A stretch of 57,978 bases of DNA from contig JAFSCU010000023.1 in assembly GCA_017436575.1 (NCBI GenBank), positions 1-57,978 of the forward strand, in the 5' to 3' direction. Position numbers and translations under genes: made by a program. How positions within the stretch are numbered: the first letter of the stretch is position 1; the number at the start of each line of letters is the position of its first letter. Shown one piece after another: positions 50,150 through 57,415 of the stretch. Below the pieces are notes generated by a model. It was not told the DNA's origin. It saw nothing but the letters and a program-made list of their open reading frames with translations, and searched no databases. The DNA comes from Oscillospiraceae bacterium. Its GTDB lineage: Bacteria > Bacillota > Clostridia > Oscillospirales > Ruminococcaceae.

Positions 50150-50178
50150 TTGAGTTACAGTAAAAACTTTGTTATACT
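50150..50178 (+). promoter_or_regulatory. Sigma-A promoter of the TIR/RyR/channel operon
   Basis: TTGAGT, 17 bp, TATACT, about 40 bp upstream of the first gene. No operator-like palindrome is visible. Confidence 0.68.
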
Positions 50179-50220
50179 GAAAATATATCGATATGTAATA
50201 TGCTTATAAAGAGGTAAATT

Positions 50221-52074
50221 ATGTTTAGCCTTGGGGTTGTAATTGTTTTTACAGGAATACTGTTTCTGGCACTTATAATAAATCTGGCATTGAAAAAGGA
50301 AAATTCTACCAAAGTCACAGGTGTGTGTGTGGCTGTGGCCGGTATTTCAGGCCTGTTTATATACGGCTATGGCTATGGTCTGGCCTATGCAGACAATCTG
50401 CCCCTGGCAATTATCCGCAGTCTTATGTCTGTATGGGGAATGTTTGTTTCCAAAAACGACTTTTCAATTGTCAGCAGCACACCTTTGTTTACATCAAAAA
50501 CCGCAGTGGTTTATTTCTGGCTGGTACATCTTATGGCACAGTATGCCACAGCCAGTGCAGCCATTGCCACCATCGGTGCCCGTGCGTTGCGCAGACTGCG
50601 ACTGTGGCTGGCATGTTTTGGCAACCTGTCACTGATTTATGGTATAAATGAAGACAGCGTGGCTTTTGGCAGACAGCTGGCAGAAACAGGCAAAAACAAT
50701 GTGGTTTTTGTGGATGACAAGGTAAGTTCTTCTCTGGAAAGCGCCATAAACTCTTTTGGCGGCGTTATTGTGGGGGACAAAAATGCCCTTTGGCCTGACA
50801 GGCGTTTTCTGCGCAGTCTTGGCGTCAGAGGGGAAAAACGAAAATATGATTTTTACCTTTTACATAAAAATGAAGCTGAAAATGCAAAATACGCCTTTGC
50901 ACTGAAAGATGCATTGGAAACAAACGGCATACCTGCCACAGCCTCAAATCTGGTTATGCTGGGCAGTGAGGAAACCCACACTGCACCACTGCAGATGTTT
51001 GGGGATAAATATGGCTTTGGCAATGTGTCTGTATTTGATGCACCGGGTCTGGTGGCCCGCCTGCTTATCCACCACTTTCCGCCTGCCGCAACTATGAAAT
51101 TCAATCCCGACTGTTCTGCGGCAGAAAATTTTGAAAGCGTTATTATCGGTTTTGGTGCTGTGGGGCAGGCTGTTATGAAACAGCTGGTTATGAACGGGCA
51201 GTTTGCCGGCAGTAACTTTTCTCTGGCAGTTTTCGCCCCTGATTTTGAAAAGGTCAGCGGTTACATCTCTGCCACCAGCCATTCTATTATGGATAACTAC
51301 AATGTAAAGTTTTACGACTATGACGGCCGCAGCCGCAGTATGTATGACTATATCCTGGCAAGAAAAGATGATATGAACTATATAGTTATCTGCACAGGCA
51401 ACGAAAAAACCAACAATGAAATCGGTGGTGAAATCACCCGATATCTTGCGCGCATCGGCAGCGATGCACAGGTTTATCTGGCTGGATACAGTGGCATTAC
51501 CTGTCTGACAGAGGGCAAAATACCGCCAAAGCAACACCCTGTTTTCACCACAGATGTGCTGTGTACAGGCGAAATAGACGCCATGGCGGCACAGCTGAAT
51601 CACCGCTATTGCAGTAATGATAAAACCCGGCAGCAGAACTGGGCTGAATGTGACTGGTTCAGCCGTATGTCCAGCCGCGCATCTGCTGACTTTATGCCAT
51701 CAATGGCGATTATTGCAGGGCAGAACCCTGCACAGCAGTGGTCGCTCACAGATATTCAGCTGGAAAACCTGGGAATTACAGAACATCTGCGCTGGATGGC
51801 GTTCCATTTTGTAATGGGTTATGAAAAAATGCCTGACGATGTTTATAATGAAAGACAGCGGCAGTATATCAGTGAAAAATCCCTTTATGGCACTGGCAGA
51901 ATTCGTGTGGGCAAAGACACTGTTGCCCGTCAGCACGCCTGTCTTATCCCTTGGGAAGAACTGGACGCACTGTCACAGAAAGAAAACGCTGTTACCGGCG
52001 GCAATGTGGACTATAAGCAGTCTGACAAAAACAATGTGCTGGCCATAGCAGATATGTATAGATTCAGTGAATAA
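50221..52074 (+). CDS. Membrane protein with TrkA-N/NAD-binding and RyR-like domains
   Basis: 617 residues. Three or four membrane helices at the N-terminus (about 3-24, 34-53, 60-77, 93-120) without a K+ filter. Then two Rossmann-like parts: SLIYGINEDSVAFGRQL (about 137-153) and SVIIGFGAVGQAVMKQL with GFGAVG at 310-315, the TrkA-N/RCK nucleotide-binding signature. Residues 517-617 form a RyR-like domain (ITEHLRWMAFHFVMGYEKMP, EHLRW at 521-525; ACLIPWEEL from about 573; DYKQSDKNNVLAI). It is first in an operon with a K+ channel and a TIR protein. ATG at 50221 follows AAAGAGG. It may partner the channel or sense a nucleotide; no ligand is known. Confidence 0.82.
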   Translation: MFSLGVVIVFTGILFLALIINLALKKENSTKVTGVCVAVAGISGLFIYGYGYGLAYADNLPLAIIRSLMSVWGMFVSKNDFSIVSSTPLFTSKTAVVYFWLVHLMAQYATASAAIATIGARALRRLRLWLACFGNLSLIYGINEDSVAFGRQLAETGKNNVVFVDDKVSSSLESAINSFGGVIVGDKNALWPDRRFLRSLGVRGEKRKYDFYLLHKNEAENAKYAFALKDALETNGIPATASNLVMLGSEETHTAPLQMFGDKYGFGNVSVFDAPGLVARLLIHHFPPAATMKFNPDCSAAENFESVIIGFGAVGQAVMKQLVMNGQFAGSNFSLAVFAPDFEKVSGYISATSHSIMDNYNVKFYDYDGRSRSMYDYILARKDDMNYIVICTGNEKTNNEIGGEITRYLARIGSDAQVYLAGYSGITCLTEGKIPPKQHPVFTTDVLCTGEIDAMAAQLNHRYCSNDKTRQQNWAECDWFSRMSSRASADFMPSMAIIAGQNPAQQWSLTDIQLENLGITEHLRWMAFHFVMGYEKMPDDVYNERQRQYISEKSLYGTGRIRVGKDTVARQHACLIPWEELDALSQKENAVTGGNVDYKQSDKNNVLAIADMYRFSE

Positions 52075-52099
52075 ATAATTTGTATATAAAGGTAATATT

Positions 52100-53662
52100 A
52101 TGAAAAAACAACACATTATGGCGGTAATATCACTGCTGGCGGCATATTTTGCCATGCTGGCATTGCTGGTATATGCTGAATCCTTCAGCGATGCCGCATC
52201 CATTACATCAATGAAAGATGCCCTGTGGTACTCGGTGGTAACACTTACCACCGTCGGTTATGGCGACCTGTCGCCGGTTACGGCCCTGGGCAAAGTGATA
52301 GGCAGTGTTTTCTTGCTGCTGTCCACCAGCTTGCTGGCTATGCTGGTGGTATTGGTTATGACCTTTGGTCAGGTGTGGGTGCGTTTTCGTCTGGGCTTTC
52401 TGCAGTCTGCCCAGTGGTTTGTATTTTCTTCACTTAATGAAGCCACCTGTGCCCTGGCACAGTCAATAAAGGCAGAAAACCCACAGGCAGTGCTGTTGTT
52501 CCCGAAAGATGACAACAAAGACCTGACTGCCATTATGAAAAAGTCAGCAGCTATGTTTGTAAAGGGCGGTGTGGAAGATATTCTGGCGCTGAAAAAGACT
52601 ACCACAGACCTTAACCTGTTCTTTATGGACCCGGACGGTTACAGCAATTATAACAATGCTGTTTCTTTCTGTGGAAAAGGCTACAGTGTTTATTGTCAGT
52701 CAGATTTTACCGCCGGTGCACAGCCGGCAGACCTGACTGTTTTCAGTATGGCAGAAAATACAGCACGCCTTTACTGGCGTACAAAGCCATTGCCAGCCAC
52801 AGCAAAAAATGTGGTAATTATCTCTGATGGTGATTATACTGATACGCTTCTGGCGCAGGCATTGCAGGTGAATCTGTATCACCCACAGCAGTCTGTGTGT
52901 TATCACATTTTTGCACCGGATACGGATTTTATGGCTATGCACCCACAGCTTGCCACAATGGTCAGTGTAAATGAAATATCTGCTGACCGTGACAGCCTGT
53001 TTTTCTACGATACAGCGTGGGGAAACCATATTGATGTTATTACACAGGCAGACAGGGTGATTGTGTCCACCACAGCAGACCGGGAAAACCTGCGAATCTA
53101 CAACAGCCTTATGAAATATTTTGTGCTGAAAGGCGATATACACCTGCGCCTTTCACAGCCTATGCCGGGCACCGCTTCATTTGGTACACACAGCAGCCTG
53201 TATACTTCCGGCGTGGTAATGCGCACTACCCTTACAAAAACAGCATCAGCTATGCATCAGATTTATCTGGACTCTACAGGTGCCACTTCACCACAGTGGG
53301 CAGACCTGTCCCCATTTACACGCGCATCCAATGTTTCTGCTGCAGACCATCTTCTGACAAAAATCAGGATTCTGCTGGAAGACGACAGTATTACAGATGT
53401 TACCGGTGCCACCTGTATGGCGGCTTATGAAAAATATGTCCGTACAAAAGATGAAAAAGCAGATTTTTACCGCCATCTTGAACACGACCGCTGGATGCGA
53501 TTCCACGCCTTGTATAACTGGACATACAACCCACAGCGAGACAACAGCCAGCGACAGCATCCGTCCATGGTGCCTTTTGAAAAACTGGATAAAGACACAC
53601 AGAAAAAAGATGATTATTCCTGGCAGCTTTTACAGCAGCTGGCAGACTTTCTGAAAGATTAA
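52100..53662 (+). CDS. Two-TM potassium channel with Rossmann and RyR-like domains
   Basis: 520 residues. TM1 about 6-26, pore helix 38-49, selectivity filter TVGYGD at 51-56, TM2 about 65-88: a KcsA/MthK-type K+ channel module, preceded by a short N-terminus. The long cytoplasmic part begins with WFVFSSLNEATCALAQSI (about 106-123), Rossmann/RCK-like but with a weak glycine motif. The C-terminus is a clear RyR-like domain: LEHDRWMRFHALYNW (EHDRW 461-465), QHPSMVPFEKL (487-496), and KKDD near 502-505. A channel gated through an RyR-like domain is inferred. It begins 25 bp after the preceding gene and ends 21 bp before the TIR gene. Confidence 0.9.
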   Translation: MKKQHIMAVISLLAAYFAMLALLVYAESFSDAASITSMKDALWYSVVTLTTVGYGDLSPVTALGKVIGSVFLLLSTSLLAMLVVLVMTFGQVWVRFRLGFLQSAQWFVFSSLNEATCALAQSIKAENPQAVLLFPKDDNKDLTAIMKKSAAMFVKGGVEDILALKKTTTDLNLFFMDPDGYSNYNNAVSFCGKGYSVYCQSDFTAGAQPADLTVFSMAENTARLYWRTKPLPATAKNVVIISDGDYTDTLLAQALQVNLYHPQQSVCYHIFAPDTDFMAMHPQLATMVSVNEISADRDSLFFYDTAWGNHIDVITQADRVIVSTTADRENLRIYNSLMKYFVLKGDIHLRLSQPMPGTASFGTHSSLYTSGVVMRTTLTKTASAMHQIYLDSTGATSPQWADLSPFTRASNVSAADHLLTKIRILLEDDSITDVTGATCMAAYEKYVRTKDEKADFYRHLEHDRWMRFHALYNWTYNPQRDNSQRQHPSMVPFEKLDKDTQKKDDYSWQLLQQLADFLKD

Positions 53663-53683
53663 ACTTTCATAAGAGGAATATAT

Positions 53684-56600
53684 ATGACTAACCAACCTGA
53701 AATGTTAAATGAATCACAGCCAAAACAGGACTTTCGTTTTGATGTGTTTATCAGCTATCGCCACTCTCCTCTGGACAGTGCGGCAGCTGCATATCTGCAC
53801 AAAGCCCTGGAAAACTATAAAATTCCAAAGGAAATTCAGGAAAAGATAGGCAAAAAGAAAATCAACCGTGTTTTCCGTGATGAGGAAGAGCTGGGGGCTT
53901 CCAGCGATCTGTTTACAGAAATTGAAAACAGTATCAAAGCCTCTGAATATCTGGTGGTTATTCTTTCACCAAGATATAAACAGTCCAAATGGTGCCTGAA
54001 AGAAATAGAATCTTTCCTGCAACACCGCAGCCGTGACAATATTCTGGCAGTAATCATCGAAGGCGAACCCTATGATGTTTTCCCGGATATACTGCTGGAA
54101 GACGGTGAACCGCTGGCACTGGACCTGCGCGCTGAAAATGAAAAAGAAATGCTGAAACTGGCAAAACAGCGTTTGCCGCGTCTGGTTGCCCCTGTTCTGG
54201 GCTGTACTTATGATGAACTGTATCAGCGTCACCGCGTGTACCGCATGCGACGCCTGGCGGCACTGTCCGGTATTGTGGCGGCAGTTTCGCTGTTTTTCGG
54301 TGCAGTAACAGTAAAACAGAATATAGAAATAAACAAAAACTTTATAGCCAAACAGGAAAATCAGTCCCGCTATCTGGCGCAGACTTCAGAAACACTGCTG
54401 GAAAAAGGCGACAGGGAAGCCGCTTTGCTGGTGGCACTGGAAGCTTTGCCAAAGGGCAGTGCAGACGACAGCCGCCCCTATGTGGCAGAGGCGCGCATAG
54501 CGCTGGAAAATGCCCTGTATACCTACAGAATGGACTATTATTACAATCTTCATCCTGTGAAGAAAATGTCTATGGATACCGACGGCAGCTATATCACCGA
54601 CTATGATGGGGATAATGATGTGCTGATGACAATGGACCTGAACGGATGTGTTTATGTTTGGAACGCCAAGGACGGCACACAGCTGCTGAAAGTGGGCGAC
54701 TGTGTCGCACAGGAAGCAAAACTGGCGTCAGACAGCCGACTGCTGATAAAAACAGCCGACAGTATATTCTGTTTTGATTACACAGATGGCAGTCTGCTGT
54801 GGCAGTGGCAGTATCCTGTGTGTGAAAAATGTTATTCCACCAAATTTGACTGGGCCTATAATAAAGCCACAGATACTCTGGTTTGCGTAAATACAAATTT
54901 TGGCTGGTATGAAGATGCGGTGTTCACACCACAGCTTACCTATGAATACAGCTATTCGGTTCTGGACAGCCATAAGATTTATAATCTGGATATGTCCAGC
55001 GGCACAGCCACTTTCTGGCATCCGGAAGATATGTATGAAAAAATAGGTACATCTGTTTACGATAAATGGAAAACAAAGGATGTGGCTGTTTCTCCGGATG
55101 GCAGATATGTGGCTATACAGCTGCAGCAGCCGGAAGAAAATTCCAGTGAAAATGGTATAAATCAGATTTATGTTTACCCTGTTTCAGGCGGACAGGCTGT
55201 CTACACATATTCTGTGCCGGCTTTCTGGCTGCTTAATCACCTTTACTGGCGGGACAATTCCAGACTTGTATCTGTTTATTCAGATGACACCTCTGTAATT
55301 GGCATGGGAATGGTGGAAAATCCATTTAACTGGTATGTGGACTGCCACGATATTGCAACAGGTGAAAAGCTGTGGACAGTAGCAGAAAGTTCCATGAGCT
55401 TAAACTACAATTTCAGCATACAGTCCTTTGAAGCCAATGACAACAGCGGCCGGACAAAACAGTGCATCGGCATTACAGGCGGCAATGTATTTGTTGCAAT
55501 AGACCGGGAAACAGGCTATGTTTACAGCCGTATGGAAGACCGCAGTGCTATAAAACTGGCACAGCCACTGCCAAATAAAACATCCATAATGATGATAACA
55601 CAGGATGGTTATGTGTTTGTTACCCATCCGCTGTCTGACAAGGTTTACAACCCTGTACTGAACAGTGCTTCATACTATCTTGATTTGGGCATTATTTCAA
55701 ATGTCTGCCGTTATAACGACAGAACATATATTTTCAATGGCTCTGGAATTTACTGGTATCAGGACAACATTGACTTCAACTTTAAGGCGATGAATATCAG
55801 CCCTTCAATGGTAGGCTTTTCAGAAAACAGCACATATATGTGGTTTATAGATTACAACGATGTAATACATCTCTATGATGTAACCACAAGAGAAGAACTG
55901 TGGACAGATGACGCAGTATGTACCACTGTCTACGACTACAATGCGCAGATTGTGAACAACAGATACCTGGTTTATCCTTCTACAGAAAAGGCAGAAATAT
56001 CGGTTTACGACATTGAAAATGCCACAGTGGCAGATTATCCTGTAAGTGACATTTATAATCAAGAAACTGAACTGTTTATCTCGGCAAAGCAGTCTGACAA
56101 TCTTATTACAGCATATACCATTACAGATAATTATGCTCCGGCAGATGACTTTGGCTACAATCCTGAAGTGGCGGCAAAAAATATACTGTGGGTCAAGGAT
56201 ATTGTAACAGGTGAAGATGTGGTGGCGTTTACAGCTGAAGATATTATCGGGGCTCTGGATAACGGCGATGACCTGTCAGAATTTTTCATAAAATCAGCAA
56301 TGCTGTCAGGGGACGGCAATTATCTGCTGATACCTTGCGACACTGTGTCAGTGGACTCAGAGGGCAAAGCGCTGCCTGCTACCGCACAGATGCCGGTGTG
56401 GGATATGGTAAACAACTGCTGGGTGAAACTGCCTCAGGAAGCAGCGGCTGTATTGCCAACAGGTTCTTCATATTACAGGCAGGACGGCTGGATTATGCCA
56501 CACAGCAGCCTTATCAATATGTATGGCAGTGACGGCAGCATAAAAATAGTGGACCTTGCTTCTATGGAAATCCTGCACAGCCTTGATTTCGGTGTGGTTG

Positions 56601-57022
56601 GCAGCACAGAAATATCCTTTACTCCTGATGGCGACCATATCATTATGCAGGATGGTGGCTATCATCTGAAAGTTTACAACTGGCGTGAAGGCAGGTATAC
56701 AATGGAAAAAACCACTGCTGAATTCAATTCTCTTGGCTTTGATTTCTATGGAGATAACCTGATGAGTGCAAAACTTACAGTCAGTGCATTTATTTCCAAT
56801 AATGTGCAGGTGTACGATATGACACAGCCGGGTGTGTACAAACTGCAGAATACCATCAGCCCTTGTATTGCCTGTGATGGTGTAACCACCGTTATTGCAG
56901 ATAATGAATATTCACGTTTCTACCCTTATTATTCCTTTGACCAGCTGATAGAAATGGCAAGGGAAATTCTGGGCGACCGACAGCTTACAGCGGCTGAAAG
57001 ACAGACATATCTTATTGACTGA
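53684..57022 (+). CDS. TIR domain protein with TM segment and beta-propeller-like repeats
   Basis: 1112 residues. TIR domain at about 18-170: FDVFISYRHS strand A and box 1, RVFRDEEELGASSDLFTEIENSI BB-loop region (62-84), and WCLKEIESF, in which E107 sits where NAD-cleaving TIR enzymes keep their catalytic Glu. After a YRMRR patch a single TM helix (about 191-210) follows, then LLEKGDREAALLVALEALP, and from about 280 to 1070 a long beta-rich region with WD40/PQQ-like blades (VYVWNAKDGTQLLKVGD, VAVSPDGRYVAIQ, ISFTPDGDHIIMQDGG). The TIR side has the positive flank and should be cytoplasmic; the propeller would then face outside. The C-terminal FDQLIEMAREILGDRQLTAAERQTYL resembles the tail of other WD40 signalling proteins. 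Confidence 0.9.
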   Translation: MTNQPEMLNESQPKQDFRFDVFISYRHSPLDSAAAAYLHKALENYKIPKEIQEKIGKKKINRVFRDEEELGASSDLFTEIENSIKASEYLVVILSPRYKQSKWCLKEIESFLQHRSRDNILAVIIEGEPYDVFPDILLEDGEPLALDLRAENEKEMLKLAKQRLPRLVAPVLGCTYDELYQRHRVYRMRRLAALSGIVAAVSLFFGAVTVKQNIEINKNFIAKQENQSRYLAQTSETLLEKGDREAALLVALEALPKGSADDSRPYVAEARIALENALYTYRMDYYYNLHPVKKMSMDTDGSYITDYDGDNDVLMTMDLNGCVYVWNAKDGTQLLKVGDCVAQEAKLASDSRLLIKTADSIFCFDYTDGSLLWQWQYPVCEKCYSTKFDWAYNKATDTLVCVNTNFGWYEDAVFTPQLTYEYSYSVLDSHKIYNLDMSSGTATFWHPEDMYEKIGTSVYDKWKTKDVAVSPDGRYVAIQLQQPEENSSENGINQIYVYPVSGGQAVYTYSVPAFWLLNHLYWRDNSRLVSVYSDDTSVIGMGMVENPFNWYVDCHDIATGEKLWTVAESSMSLNYNFSIQSFEANDNSGRTKQCIGITGGNVFVAIDRETGYVYSRMEDRSAIKLAQPLPNKTSIMMITQDGYVFVTHPLSDKVYNPVLNSASYYLDLGIISNVCRYNDRTYIFNGSGIYWYQDNIDFNFKAMNISPSMVGFSENSTYMWFIDYNDVIHLYDVTTREELWTDDAVCTTVYDYNAQIVNNRYLVYPSTEKAEISVYDIENATVADYPVSDIYNQETELFISAKQSDNLITAYTITDNYAPADDFGYNPEVAAKNILWVKDIVTGEDVVAFTAEDIIGALDNGDDLSEFFIKSAMLSGDGNYLLIPCDTVSVDSEGKALPATAQMPVWDMVNNCWVKLPQEAAAVLPTGSSYYRQDGWIMPHSSLINMYGSDGSIKIVDLASMEILHSLDFGVVGSTEISFTPDGDHIIMQDGGYHLKVYNWREGRYTMEKTTAEFNSLGFDFYGDNLMSAKLTVSAFISNNVQVYDMTQPGVYKLQNTISPCIACDGVTTVIADNEYSRFYPYYSFDQLIEMAREILGDRQLTAAERQTYLID

Positions 57023-57040
57023 TTTTGGAAAGGTGATTCT

Positions 57041-57379
57041 ATGCTGAAACTTTTTCTCCACTGGGAAATACTTATGTTTACCACTACAGACTGGTCCTGG
57101 GCAGGATTTATACTGATTGGTTTGGTGTTGGGGCGGTTTCTGCGACAGTTTGCAGTCAGACGAAAAAGTGAATACAAAGAAACACTGATGGGTATTTGCA
57201 TCATCTGGCTGGTGCTGCATATAATTAACTTTGCATTTATGCTGAAAGACCCTGCAGGCCTGCCAACACTGATATTGTCTATGCTGTCATCATTTGCACC
57301 GGTGGCAACATTTACAGTAATCGGCTTTCTGCTGACAGATATAATAAAAAGGCTGAAAGAAAAAATTGATGAAATTTAA
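57041..57379 (+). CDS. Small polytopic membrane protein of the TIR operon
   Basis: 112 residues, family not recognised. Three hydrophobic helices, about 19-36, 49-66 and 77-100, with basic loops (RQFAVRRKSEYK) and a C-terminal charged helix (IIKRLKEKIDEI). ATG at 57041 follows GAAAGGTG. It begins 18 bp after the TIR gene and ends before a terminator, so it is the last gene of the four-gene operon. It could be an accessory or channel subunit; there is no motif to say. Confidence 0.8.
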   Translation: MLKLFLHWEILMFTTTDWSWAGFILIGLVLGRFLRQFAVRRKSEYKETLMGICIIWLVLHIINFAFMLKDPAGLPTLILSMLSSFAPVATFTVIGFLLTDIIKRLKEKIDEI

Positions 57380-57382
57380 TAC

Positions 57383-57415
57383 AAAAGCACAGCGACTGCT
57401 GTGCTTTTTATTTGT
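57383..57415 (+). terminator. Rho-independent terminator of the TIR operon
   Basis: AAAAGCACAGC-GACT-GCTGTGCTTTTTATTTG. Confidence 0.9.

Follow-up and report, generated by a model that had tools for sequence, protein, structure and literature searches.

Organization of the locus

Could a bacterial TIR protein act through an ion channel? This possibility was raised by a first-pass annotation of a stretch of DNA from an Oscillospiraceae bacterium (Clostridia; Ruminococcaceae; GenBank assembly GCA_017436575.1, contig JAFSCU010000023.1), and the whole stretch of 57,978 nucleotides is called the window below. Four open reading frames (ORFs), g1 to g4, all on the + strand, span window positions 50221-57379 with spacers of 25, 21 and 18 bp, as the annotation had described. 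It had read them as a TIR protein with the catalytic Glu position filled, a K+ channel with an intact filter, two proteins that end in RyR-like domains, and a small membrane protein, and these readings held, with a reservation on the RyR domain of g1 that is given below. Its interpretation, that an ADP-ribose-type signal made or sensed by the TIR protein is read by the RyR-like domains and gates the channel, is partly supported by the present analysis. The features of the locus are as follows.

50150..50178, + strand: promoter-like site (extended -10) upstream of g1, TTGAGT-17-TATACT with TG before the -10; 9/12 consensus, no proof of function
50221..52074, + strand: g1, 617-residue membrane, tandem RCK-like and RyR protein without a K+ filter
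50224..50613, + strand: membrane part of g1, model helices 2-24, 34-55, 60-76, 93-110 and 115-131 (AlphaFold2, low confidence; predicted local distance difference test score, pLDDT, of the block 42-77)
50620..51510, + strand: tandem Rossmann/RCK-like region of g1, about residues 134-430
51673..52071, + strand: insert-bearing RyR-like domain of g1, about residues 485-617 (leave-out profile, E 5.7e-10)
52100..53662, + strand: g2, 520-residue K+ channel with two transmembrane helices (2TM) and a C-terminal RyR domain
52250..52267, + strand: selectivity filter TVGYGD of g2, residues 51-56
52409..53314, + strand: Rossmann-rich, RCK-like linker of g2, about residues 104-405
53387..53653, + strand: RyR domain of g2, about residues 430-518
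53684..57022, + strand: g3, 1112-residue protein with a TIR domain, a membrane helix and a beta-propeller-like region
53735..54139, + strand: TIR domain of g3 (TIR_2 3.7e-14; ThsB_TIR 30.4 bits)
54002..54004, + strand: codon of g3 E107, the expected catalytic Glu, within SKWCLKEIES
54257..54313, + strand: membrane helix of g3, residues 192-210 (hydropathy scan; flanking charge +5 towards the TIR domain and +1 beyond the helix)
54323..57019, + strand: beta-propeller-like region of g3, predicted to be external (PQQ_2 and Beta-prop matches under their cut-offs)
57041..57379, + strand: g4, 112-residue membrane protein with three hydrophobic segments, outside the conserved core
57383..57408, + strand: intrinsic-terminator-like hairpin of 11 pairs, ranking first of 15 listed (7.5 in shuffles)

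The annotation had further assigned one promoter and one terminator to the four genes. The terminator-like hairpin agrees with this, and a promoter-like site is present; the promoter match has to be regarded as weak, since 27 sites of such strength were found in the stretch vs 17.5 in shuffles. No NCBIfam model reached its cut-off for any of the four proteins, and PADLOC gave g4 one weak match.

Conservation of the gene set

Among the 16 genomes of the window's genus, a full-length g2 orthologue is present in 4, the window's own included. The genes g1, g2 and g3 occur in the same order in 3 of the 15 congeners, with identities to the window genes of 87-89% (locus L020), 77-83% (L021) and 56-62% (L022). 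In L020 the operon occupies the same genome site as in the window. It is located elsewhere in L021 and L022, where other genes follow the ABC-transporter genes that flank the window operon on the left. Four further congeners contain a different RyR membrane protein, in two of them (L023, L025) with a different TIR gene directly after it.

We then used a g1-family profile to scan genome contigs, which gave 517 pattern matches, 170 of them confirmed; the best 80 of the 170 were analysed. Of these, 63 share at least 33% identity, while 17 at 23-26% were counted apart. All come from named genomes: Oscillospiraceae, Lachnospiraceae, Mogibacterium, Solobacterium and other groups, for the most part of the ruminant gut, and the more distant ones from Clostridiaceae, Thermoclostridium, Spirochaetes and Synergistaceae. 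A channel gene was counted as adjacent if its product has the filter and a RyR domain and if it lies on the same strand at a distance of at most 300 bp, and TIR genes were sought within 8 kb. Of the 63 close relatives, 51 have such a channel gene beside them and 37 have a TIR gene nearby; both are found in 30 and neither in 5. The expected number of TIR neighbours is 0.3 at 0.68 TIR per genome, the density of the order set described below, and 2.4 even at five per genome. These counts were made on all ORFs, and they become 42/63 and 32/63 if only non-overlapping longest ORFs are considered; the five TIRs added by the all-ORF count (L102, L110, L115, L120, L121) match at E 8e-14 or better. In most of the 42 pairs of the longest-ORF count, g1 and the channel gene share a few bases or are separated by 0-5 bp; g1 comes first in 29 of the 42 and the channel in 13. 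A quick tree of g1, which gave several long-branch warnings, requires at the fewest 16 changes for TIR presence and 8 for the channel.

Consequently, the g1-g2-g3 set is a conserved unit, which the annotation's reading of the operon had required. This does not extend to g4, which was rejected as a core gene: it is kept in L020 and has no match in L021, and the contig of L022 ends too soon. Carriage by plasmids or phages as a rule was also rejected, with g1 found in 1 of 72,556 plasmid records and in 0 of 50,697 phage records. Plasmid pNP243 of Butyrivibrio fibrisolvens D1 contains a TIR-g1 pair, in which the g1 homologue beside the TIR protein is annotated as a "hypothetical protein".

It was also noted that in L108, L109, L113, L114, L116 and L118 the channel-g1 pair has no nearby TIR gene and is followed by one further gene, the start of whose product resembles what we take to be a nucleoside hydrolase motif.

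The channel and its RyR domain

For g2, Pfam reports Ion_trans_2 at E 2.7e-13, and the filter TVGYGD is present in 51/51 channel relatives gathered, which were chosen by the pattern T-[VI]-G-[YF]-G-[DN]. Its RyR domain exceeds the Pfam cut-off (PF02026, 28.9 bits vs 27.4), and RyR2 in the PDB is matched at 3.3e-13. The structure model is weak (pLDDT 60.2), and its fold match agrees with RyR but is not decisive. In an alignment, H462, W465, H487 and D504 of g2 correspond, with identical spacing, to H75, W78, H100 and D117 of the phage protein RyDEP, which is reported to handle cyclic ADP-ribose (cADPR) isomers through these pocket residues (PMC13232231). Two of the 51 channels have no RyR tail; among the 49 that do, H, W and H are kept in 49 and D in 46.

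The filter-less protein, a probable gating ring

The RyR domain of g1 requires more sensitive comparisons. No Pfam match of g1 lies above cut-off, even the Pfam hits up to E 1 do not include RyR, and a profile from the four g1 proteins of the genus alone matched no RyR structure in the PDB. A RyR profile built without any g1 protein of the genus finds the window g1 at E 5.7e-10, and one built without g1 and g2 at E 4.5e-9; the C-termini of g1 and g2 align at E 8e-7, and a wider g1-family profile matches RyR structures at 7.5e-15. By these profile comparisons the RyR assignment of the operon proteins holds, with the reservation that the domain of g1 appears to be detectable only with more than Pfam. 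The pocket residues H522, W525, H572 and D602 are each kept in 63/63 relatives. A loss of the catalytic Asp from g1 was considered, for Asp is not among the six commonest residues at ungapped position 589 in the 63 relatives; the claim was dropped because D602, which lies past an insert, is Asp in all of them.

The model of g1 (pLDDT 68.5) matches the gating rings of CASTOR/DMI1 and GsuK, which makes g1 a probable gating-ring protein of the CASTOR/GsuK type. Separately, in L078 (8245-12148) a g1-type RCK-RyR protein is followed by a 698-residue protein weakly like the plant channel CASTOR (E 0.0034).

The probable TIR receptor

The TIR domain of g3 matches TIR_2 (3.7e-14) and exceeds the cut-off of ThsB_TIR (PF08937, 30.4 bits vs 21.2). 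Residue 107 is Glu, as it is in 5/5 g3-type proteins. This column was read from an alignment of 57 TIR ORFs located no more than 8 kb from a g1 relative, where Glu occurs in 38/38 main TIRs, that is, ORFs outside a class of 260-335 residues. Of the 19 short TIR-like ORFs in that class, 18 carry Arg, Lys or Cys instead, and the one that keeps Glu is the 264-residue TIR of L121. The short Glu-less proteins mostly precede a longer Glu-keeping TIR-TPR protein; for example, at L086:15932-16777 and similar places a 280-residue TIR-like membrane protein stands before a TIR-TPR protein of about 680 residues, as a pseudo-enzyme pair. That the Glu is strictly kept in one partner and lost in the other suggests that it is functionally important in the main TIR. 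Glu is also present in 10/10 TIRs from other RyR or genus loci (L023, L027, L062, L066, L069 twice, L070, L073, L074, L075).

There is a single hydrophobic segment in g3 (residues 192-210), with a net charge of +5 before and +1 after it. A membrane helix follows the TIR domain in 55 of the 57 ORFs, mostly about 35-65 residues past it, and in 50 of these 55 the flank facing the TIR domain carries more positive charge; 33 of the 55 have one helix with more than 100 residues beyond. The two ORFs without a hydrophobic segment belong to distant g1 relatives (L147, L153). Because of this charge bias and the positive-inside rule, the TIR domain is predicted to be cytosolic and the region beyond the helix (propeller, TPR or Sel1) to be outside, and we infer that the module probably surveys the cell surface. 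The outer part varies among partners, being propeller-like (L084, L107 and weakly L139), TPR (L086, L147), Sel1 (L132, L135) or nearly absent in a TIR-only protein (L128). In operons of the Mogibacterium type, a protein of about 800-1080 residues with a signal-like N-terminus is often found between the channel and TIR genes. One example, L086:13432-15945, belongs to a sequence cluster present in 16/80 loci; it was the one searched, and it has no Pfam family.

Linkage of RyR and TIR genes at large

TIR genes are also found beside RyR genes of other kinds. In an order set of 295 genomes, RyR occurs in 25 and TIR in 83, and TIR is present in 21/25 RyR genomes vs 62/270 others (Fisher 1.7e-9). In a class set of 391 genomes, with RyR in 27 and TIR in 123, the numbers are 22/27 vs 101/364 (3.9e-8; 1e-7 without the window's genome). 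It should be noted that the genomes are related to each other, and these probabilities are guides. Leaving the window out, we counted the loci whose RyR domain has a TIR gene no more than 5 kb away: there are 8 among the 25 loci of the order set (L027, L062, L066, L069, L070, L073, L074, L075), vs 0.3 expected, and at least 7 among the 29 of the class set, vs 0.2 expected. In L066, which represents another family, the partners of a TIR-propeller-like protein are a g1-type protein and a small protein with RyR.

The annotation had suggested a search for co-occurrence across Clostridia and in defence islands, and the co-occurrence is thus well above expectation. Defence islands as the origin of the linkage were rejected with the help of N6_Mtase (PF02384), an abundant restriction-modification marker that served as a control: 0/26 RyR loci have it within 5 kb. 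This family is present in 206/295 order genomes and, with 46 matches, in 18/25 RyR genomes, which is no enrichment; on contigs shared with RyR loci the nearest copies are about 17 and 99 kb away. The RyR loci do not look like defence islands. Therefore, a sensor of stress or of competitors is as open as phage defence.

Some individual loci are worth describing. One 669-residue protein in L070 (9796-11805; G065:C1) is a natural TIR-RyR fusion: it is hydrophobic in its N-terminal part, contains a TIR domain and ends in RyR. At L064:5925-9443 and L027:11244-14618, RyR genes adjoin a fusion of 1124-1172 residues with two AAA modules and an M41 (FtsH-type) peptidase, and L027 additionally carries a 110-residue TIR-only gene. 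A 1505-residue DUF4062-STAND protein is encoded next to a RyR gene at L067:3837-8795. Phage RyR proteins gave matches in 266 phage records; those of the gut phages MT836850.1 and MT837259.1 are about 63% identical to the 94-residue bacterial RyR protein of L027 and are candidates for a counter-defence gene or an acquired one.

A proposed mechanism and its alternatives

Based on these observations, we propose that the g3 receptor makes an ADP-ribose-type signal which is bound by the RyR domains and gates K+ flux, a proposal to which we give slightly better than even chances. The g3 protein would be a one-pass receptor whose propeller senses something at the cell surface, and sensing would cluster or rearrange its cytosolic TIR domains. 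These domains would convert NAD+ to an ADP-ribose-type nucleotide. Its binding to the terminal RyR domains of g2 and g1 would, by way of RCK-type gating domains, open (or close) the g2 channel, with g1 as its filter-less gating-ring partner. Membrane potential and K+ content would shift as a result. In other lineages repeats of the TPR or Sel1 type would form the outer part of the receptor, perhaps aided by a secreted protein that the operon also encodes. Depolarisation through K+ efflux could halt phage growth or signal envelope attack, and K+ influx or channel closure could serve homeostasis. The sequences and their comparison establish the domain make-up, the K+ filter, the pocket residues, the TIR Glu and the recurrent gene linkage; the topology, the activities, the g1-g2 assembly and the biological role are our inference.

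Several points weigh against this proposal. Among the 63 close g1 relatives, 26 have no TIR gene within 8 kb and 12 have no adjacent channel; some neighbours lie on short contigs, and such absences are therefore upper bounds. None of the 17 distant relatives has a channel, and 2 have a TIR gene nearby. The more distant channel of L080 has neither the second H nor the D of the pocket. Some TIR families are not enzymes, and since RyR and RCK domains can bind ATP, ADP or NAD too, the ligand need not come from the TIR protein. The topology was drawn from hydropathy and charge, many of the 57 TIR ORFs come from close relatives, and the structure models of g1 and g2 are of middling or low confidence. 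In addition, in the RyDEP study 2/8 tested phage RyR proteins did not bind cADPR isomers, and none of the RyDEP homologues was found to cleave them (PMC13232231).

The main rival is a metabolic, nucleotide-gated channel, in which the RyR and RCK domains of g1 and g2 read ordinary adenine nucleotides or NAD+ as a measure of energy or redox state, the part of the TIR protein being limited to anchoring or to local depletion of NAD+. Such a module would serve K+ homeostasis, pH or electrical signalling. GsuK, the dual-RCK K+ channel matched by g1, is reported to be opened by ADP and NAD+ (PMC3510474), a finding that also favours our own proposal, and human RyR Repeat12, matched by the tail of g2, has been solved with AMP-PCP and with ATP, as the structure titles state. 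The dissimilarity of the loci to defence islands and the many g1-channel pairs with no nearby TIR point in the same direction. However, this explanation predicts neither the repeated strong linkage of RyR to TIR genes of varied architecture nor the TIR-RyR fusion; it accounts for the channel and the pocket but not for the TIR linkage, and we regard it as unlikely.

Some TIR adaptors act as scaffolds, and the receptor TIR domains might likewise bind the gating ring directly in a physical complex with no diffusible signal. All three conserved proteins are predicted to lie in one membrane, and the g1 and channel genes are tightly packed, which would suit a complex. The Glu of 38/38 main TIRs and the almost invariant pocket residues of RyR speak against it. 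Moreover, since the TIR types change while g1 and g2 stay constant, a shared small signal fits better than a specific interface, and a purely physical complex is improbable.

Alternatively, the RyR domains could terminate a signal by hydrolysing or soaking up TIR-made cADPR isomers, as RyDEP does, and so limit toxicity. Both residues of the RyDEP catalytic pair (H75, D117) are kept in g2 at equal spacing. However, the Asp of g1 is present only past an insert, the RyR domain is tethered to a channel, and the other homologues tested did not cleave (PMC13232231), all of which makes this explanation very unlikely. Finally, a loose neighbourhood of unrelated genes, to which the unconserved g4 and the varying gene order might point, is barely credible and is refuted for g1-g2 and for TIR by the neighbour counts for channel (51/63) and TIR (37/63), by the linkage counts and by the conservation at different genome sites.

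If the proposal of a TIR-made signal gating the channel is right, ion flux would join the outputs of bacterial TIR signalling. Direct action of cyclic ADP-ribose on ryanodine-receptor domains has long been disputed, and the operon would then offer a small testable system for this dispute; it would also suggest a target of the many phage RyR proteins. More tentatively, and with the balance still leaning against it, the system may be a bacterial counterpart of Toll-like receptor signalling, in which outward TIR receptors produce an ADP-ribose-type messenger and a RyR-type domain opens a K+ channel. A surface attack, meaning phage adsorption, a toxin or wall damage, would then be turned into an electrical response. 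In that case, cADPR-type channel gating through Repeat12 domains would exist in bacteria, and phage RyR proteins would be natural antagonists of it.

Comparison with known systems

Known Thoeris effectors are of the SIR2-SLOG, membrane-macro and caspase-like types. The operon is similar to Thoeris in that the TIR of g3 is of the ThsB type and a separate protein carries a domain whose family has known binders of cADPR isomers. It differs in that no SIR2, macro or protease effector domain is found among the Pfam hits of the four proteins, the candidate effector here is a RyR-bearing K+ channel, and the TIR protein is probably bound to the membrane and equipped with an outer domain. No Thoeris model was reached in PADLOC or NCBIfam, the best NCBIfam Thoeris hit having 14 bits vs a cut-off of 220; PADLOC gave g3 only partial TIR matches, to the PDC-S66 (best, 31 bits), SAVED-TIR and RT-TIR models. 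By effector and by models, the operon as a system is not Thoeris.

Among channels gated by RCK domains, GsuK, CASTOR and MthK share with the operon the gating ring, as modelled for g1, and the 2TM K+ pore of g2, but not the C-terminal RyR, the filter-less tandem partner or the linked TIR receptor. The animal ryanodine receptor has its Repeat12 on a Ca2+ release channel, whereas here a single bacterial domain is placed on a K+ channel. The phage anti-Thoeris protein RyDEP is similar in its pocket, the RyR of g2 being 39% identical to DyoEdafos gp78 over 54 residues (E 3e-5) with H, W, H and D equally spaced (PMC13232231); unlike RyDEP, g2 is a host gene, fused to a channel and in the same operon as a TIR gene, which would make it a receiver rather than an evader. 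Swarozyc resembles the present loci in its DUF4062, reported to be a TIR-like NADase, given the DUF4062-STAND gene that adjoins a RyR gene in L067; it works by NAD+ depletion, and "RyR", "channel" and "potassium" occur 0 times in the text of the paper (PMC13174449).

In the titles and abstract starts of the open-licence literature searched, no TIR/RyR/K+ channel system and no earlier case of a TIR gene linked in an operon to a nucleotide-receiver channel were found, although an earlier in-silico mention is possible. Taken together, we place the operon within TIR nucleotide signalling, as a form with a new, channel-type receiver.

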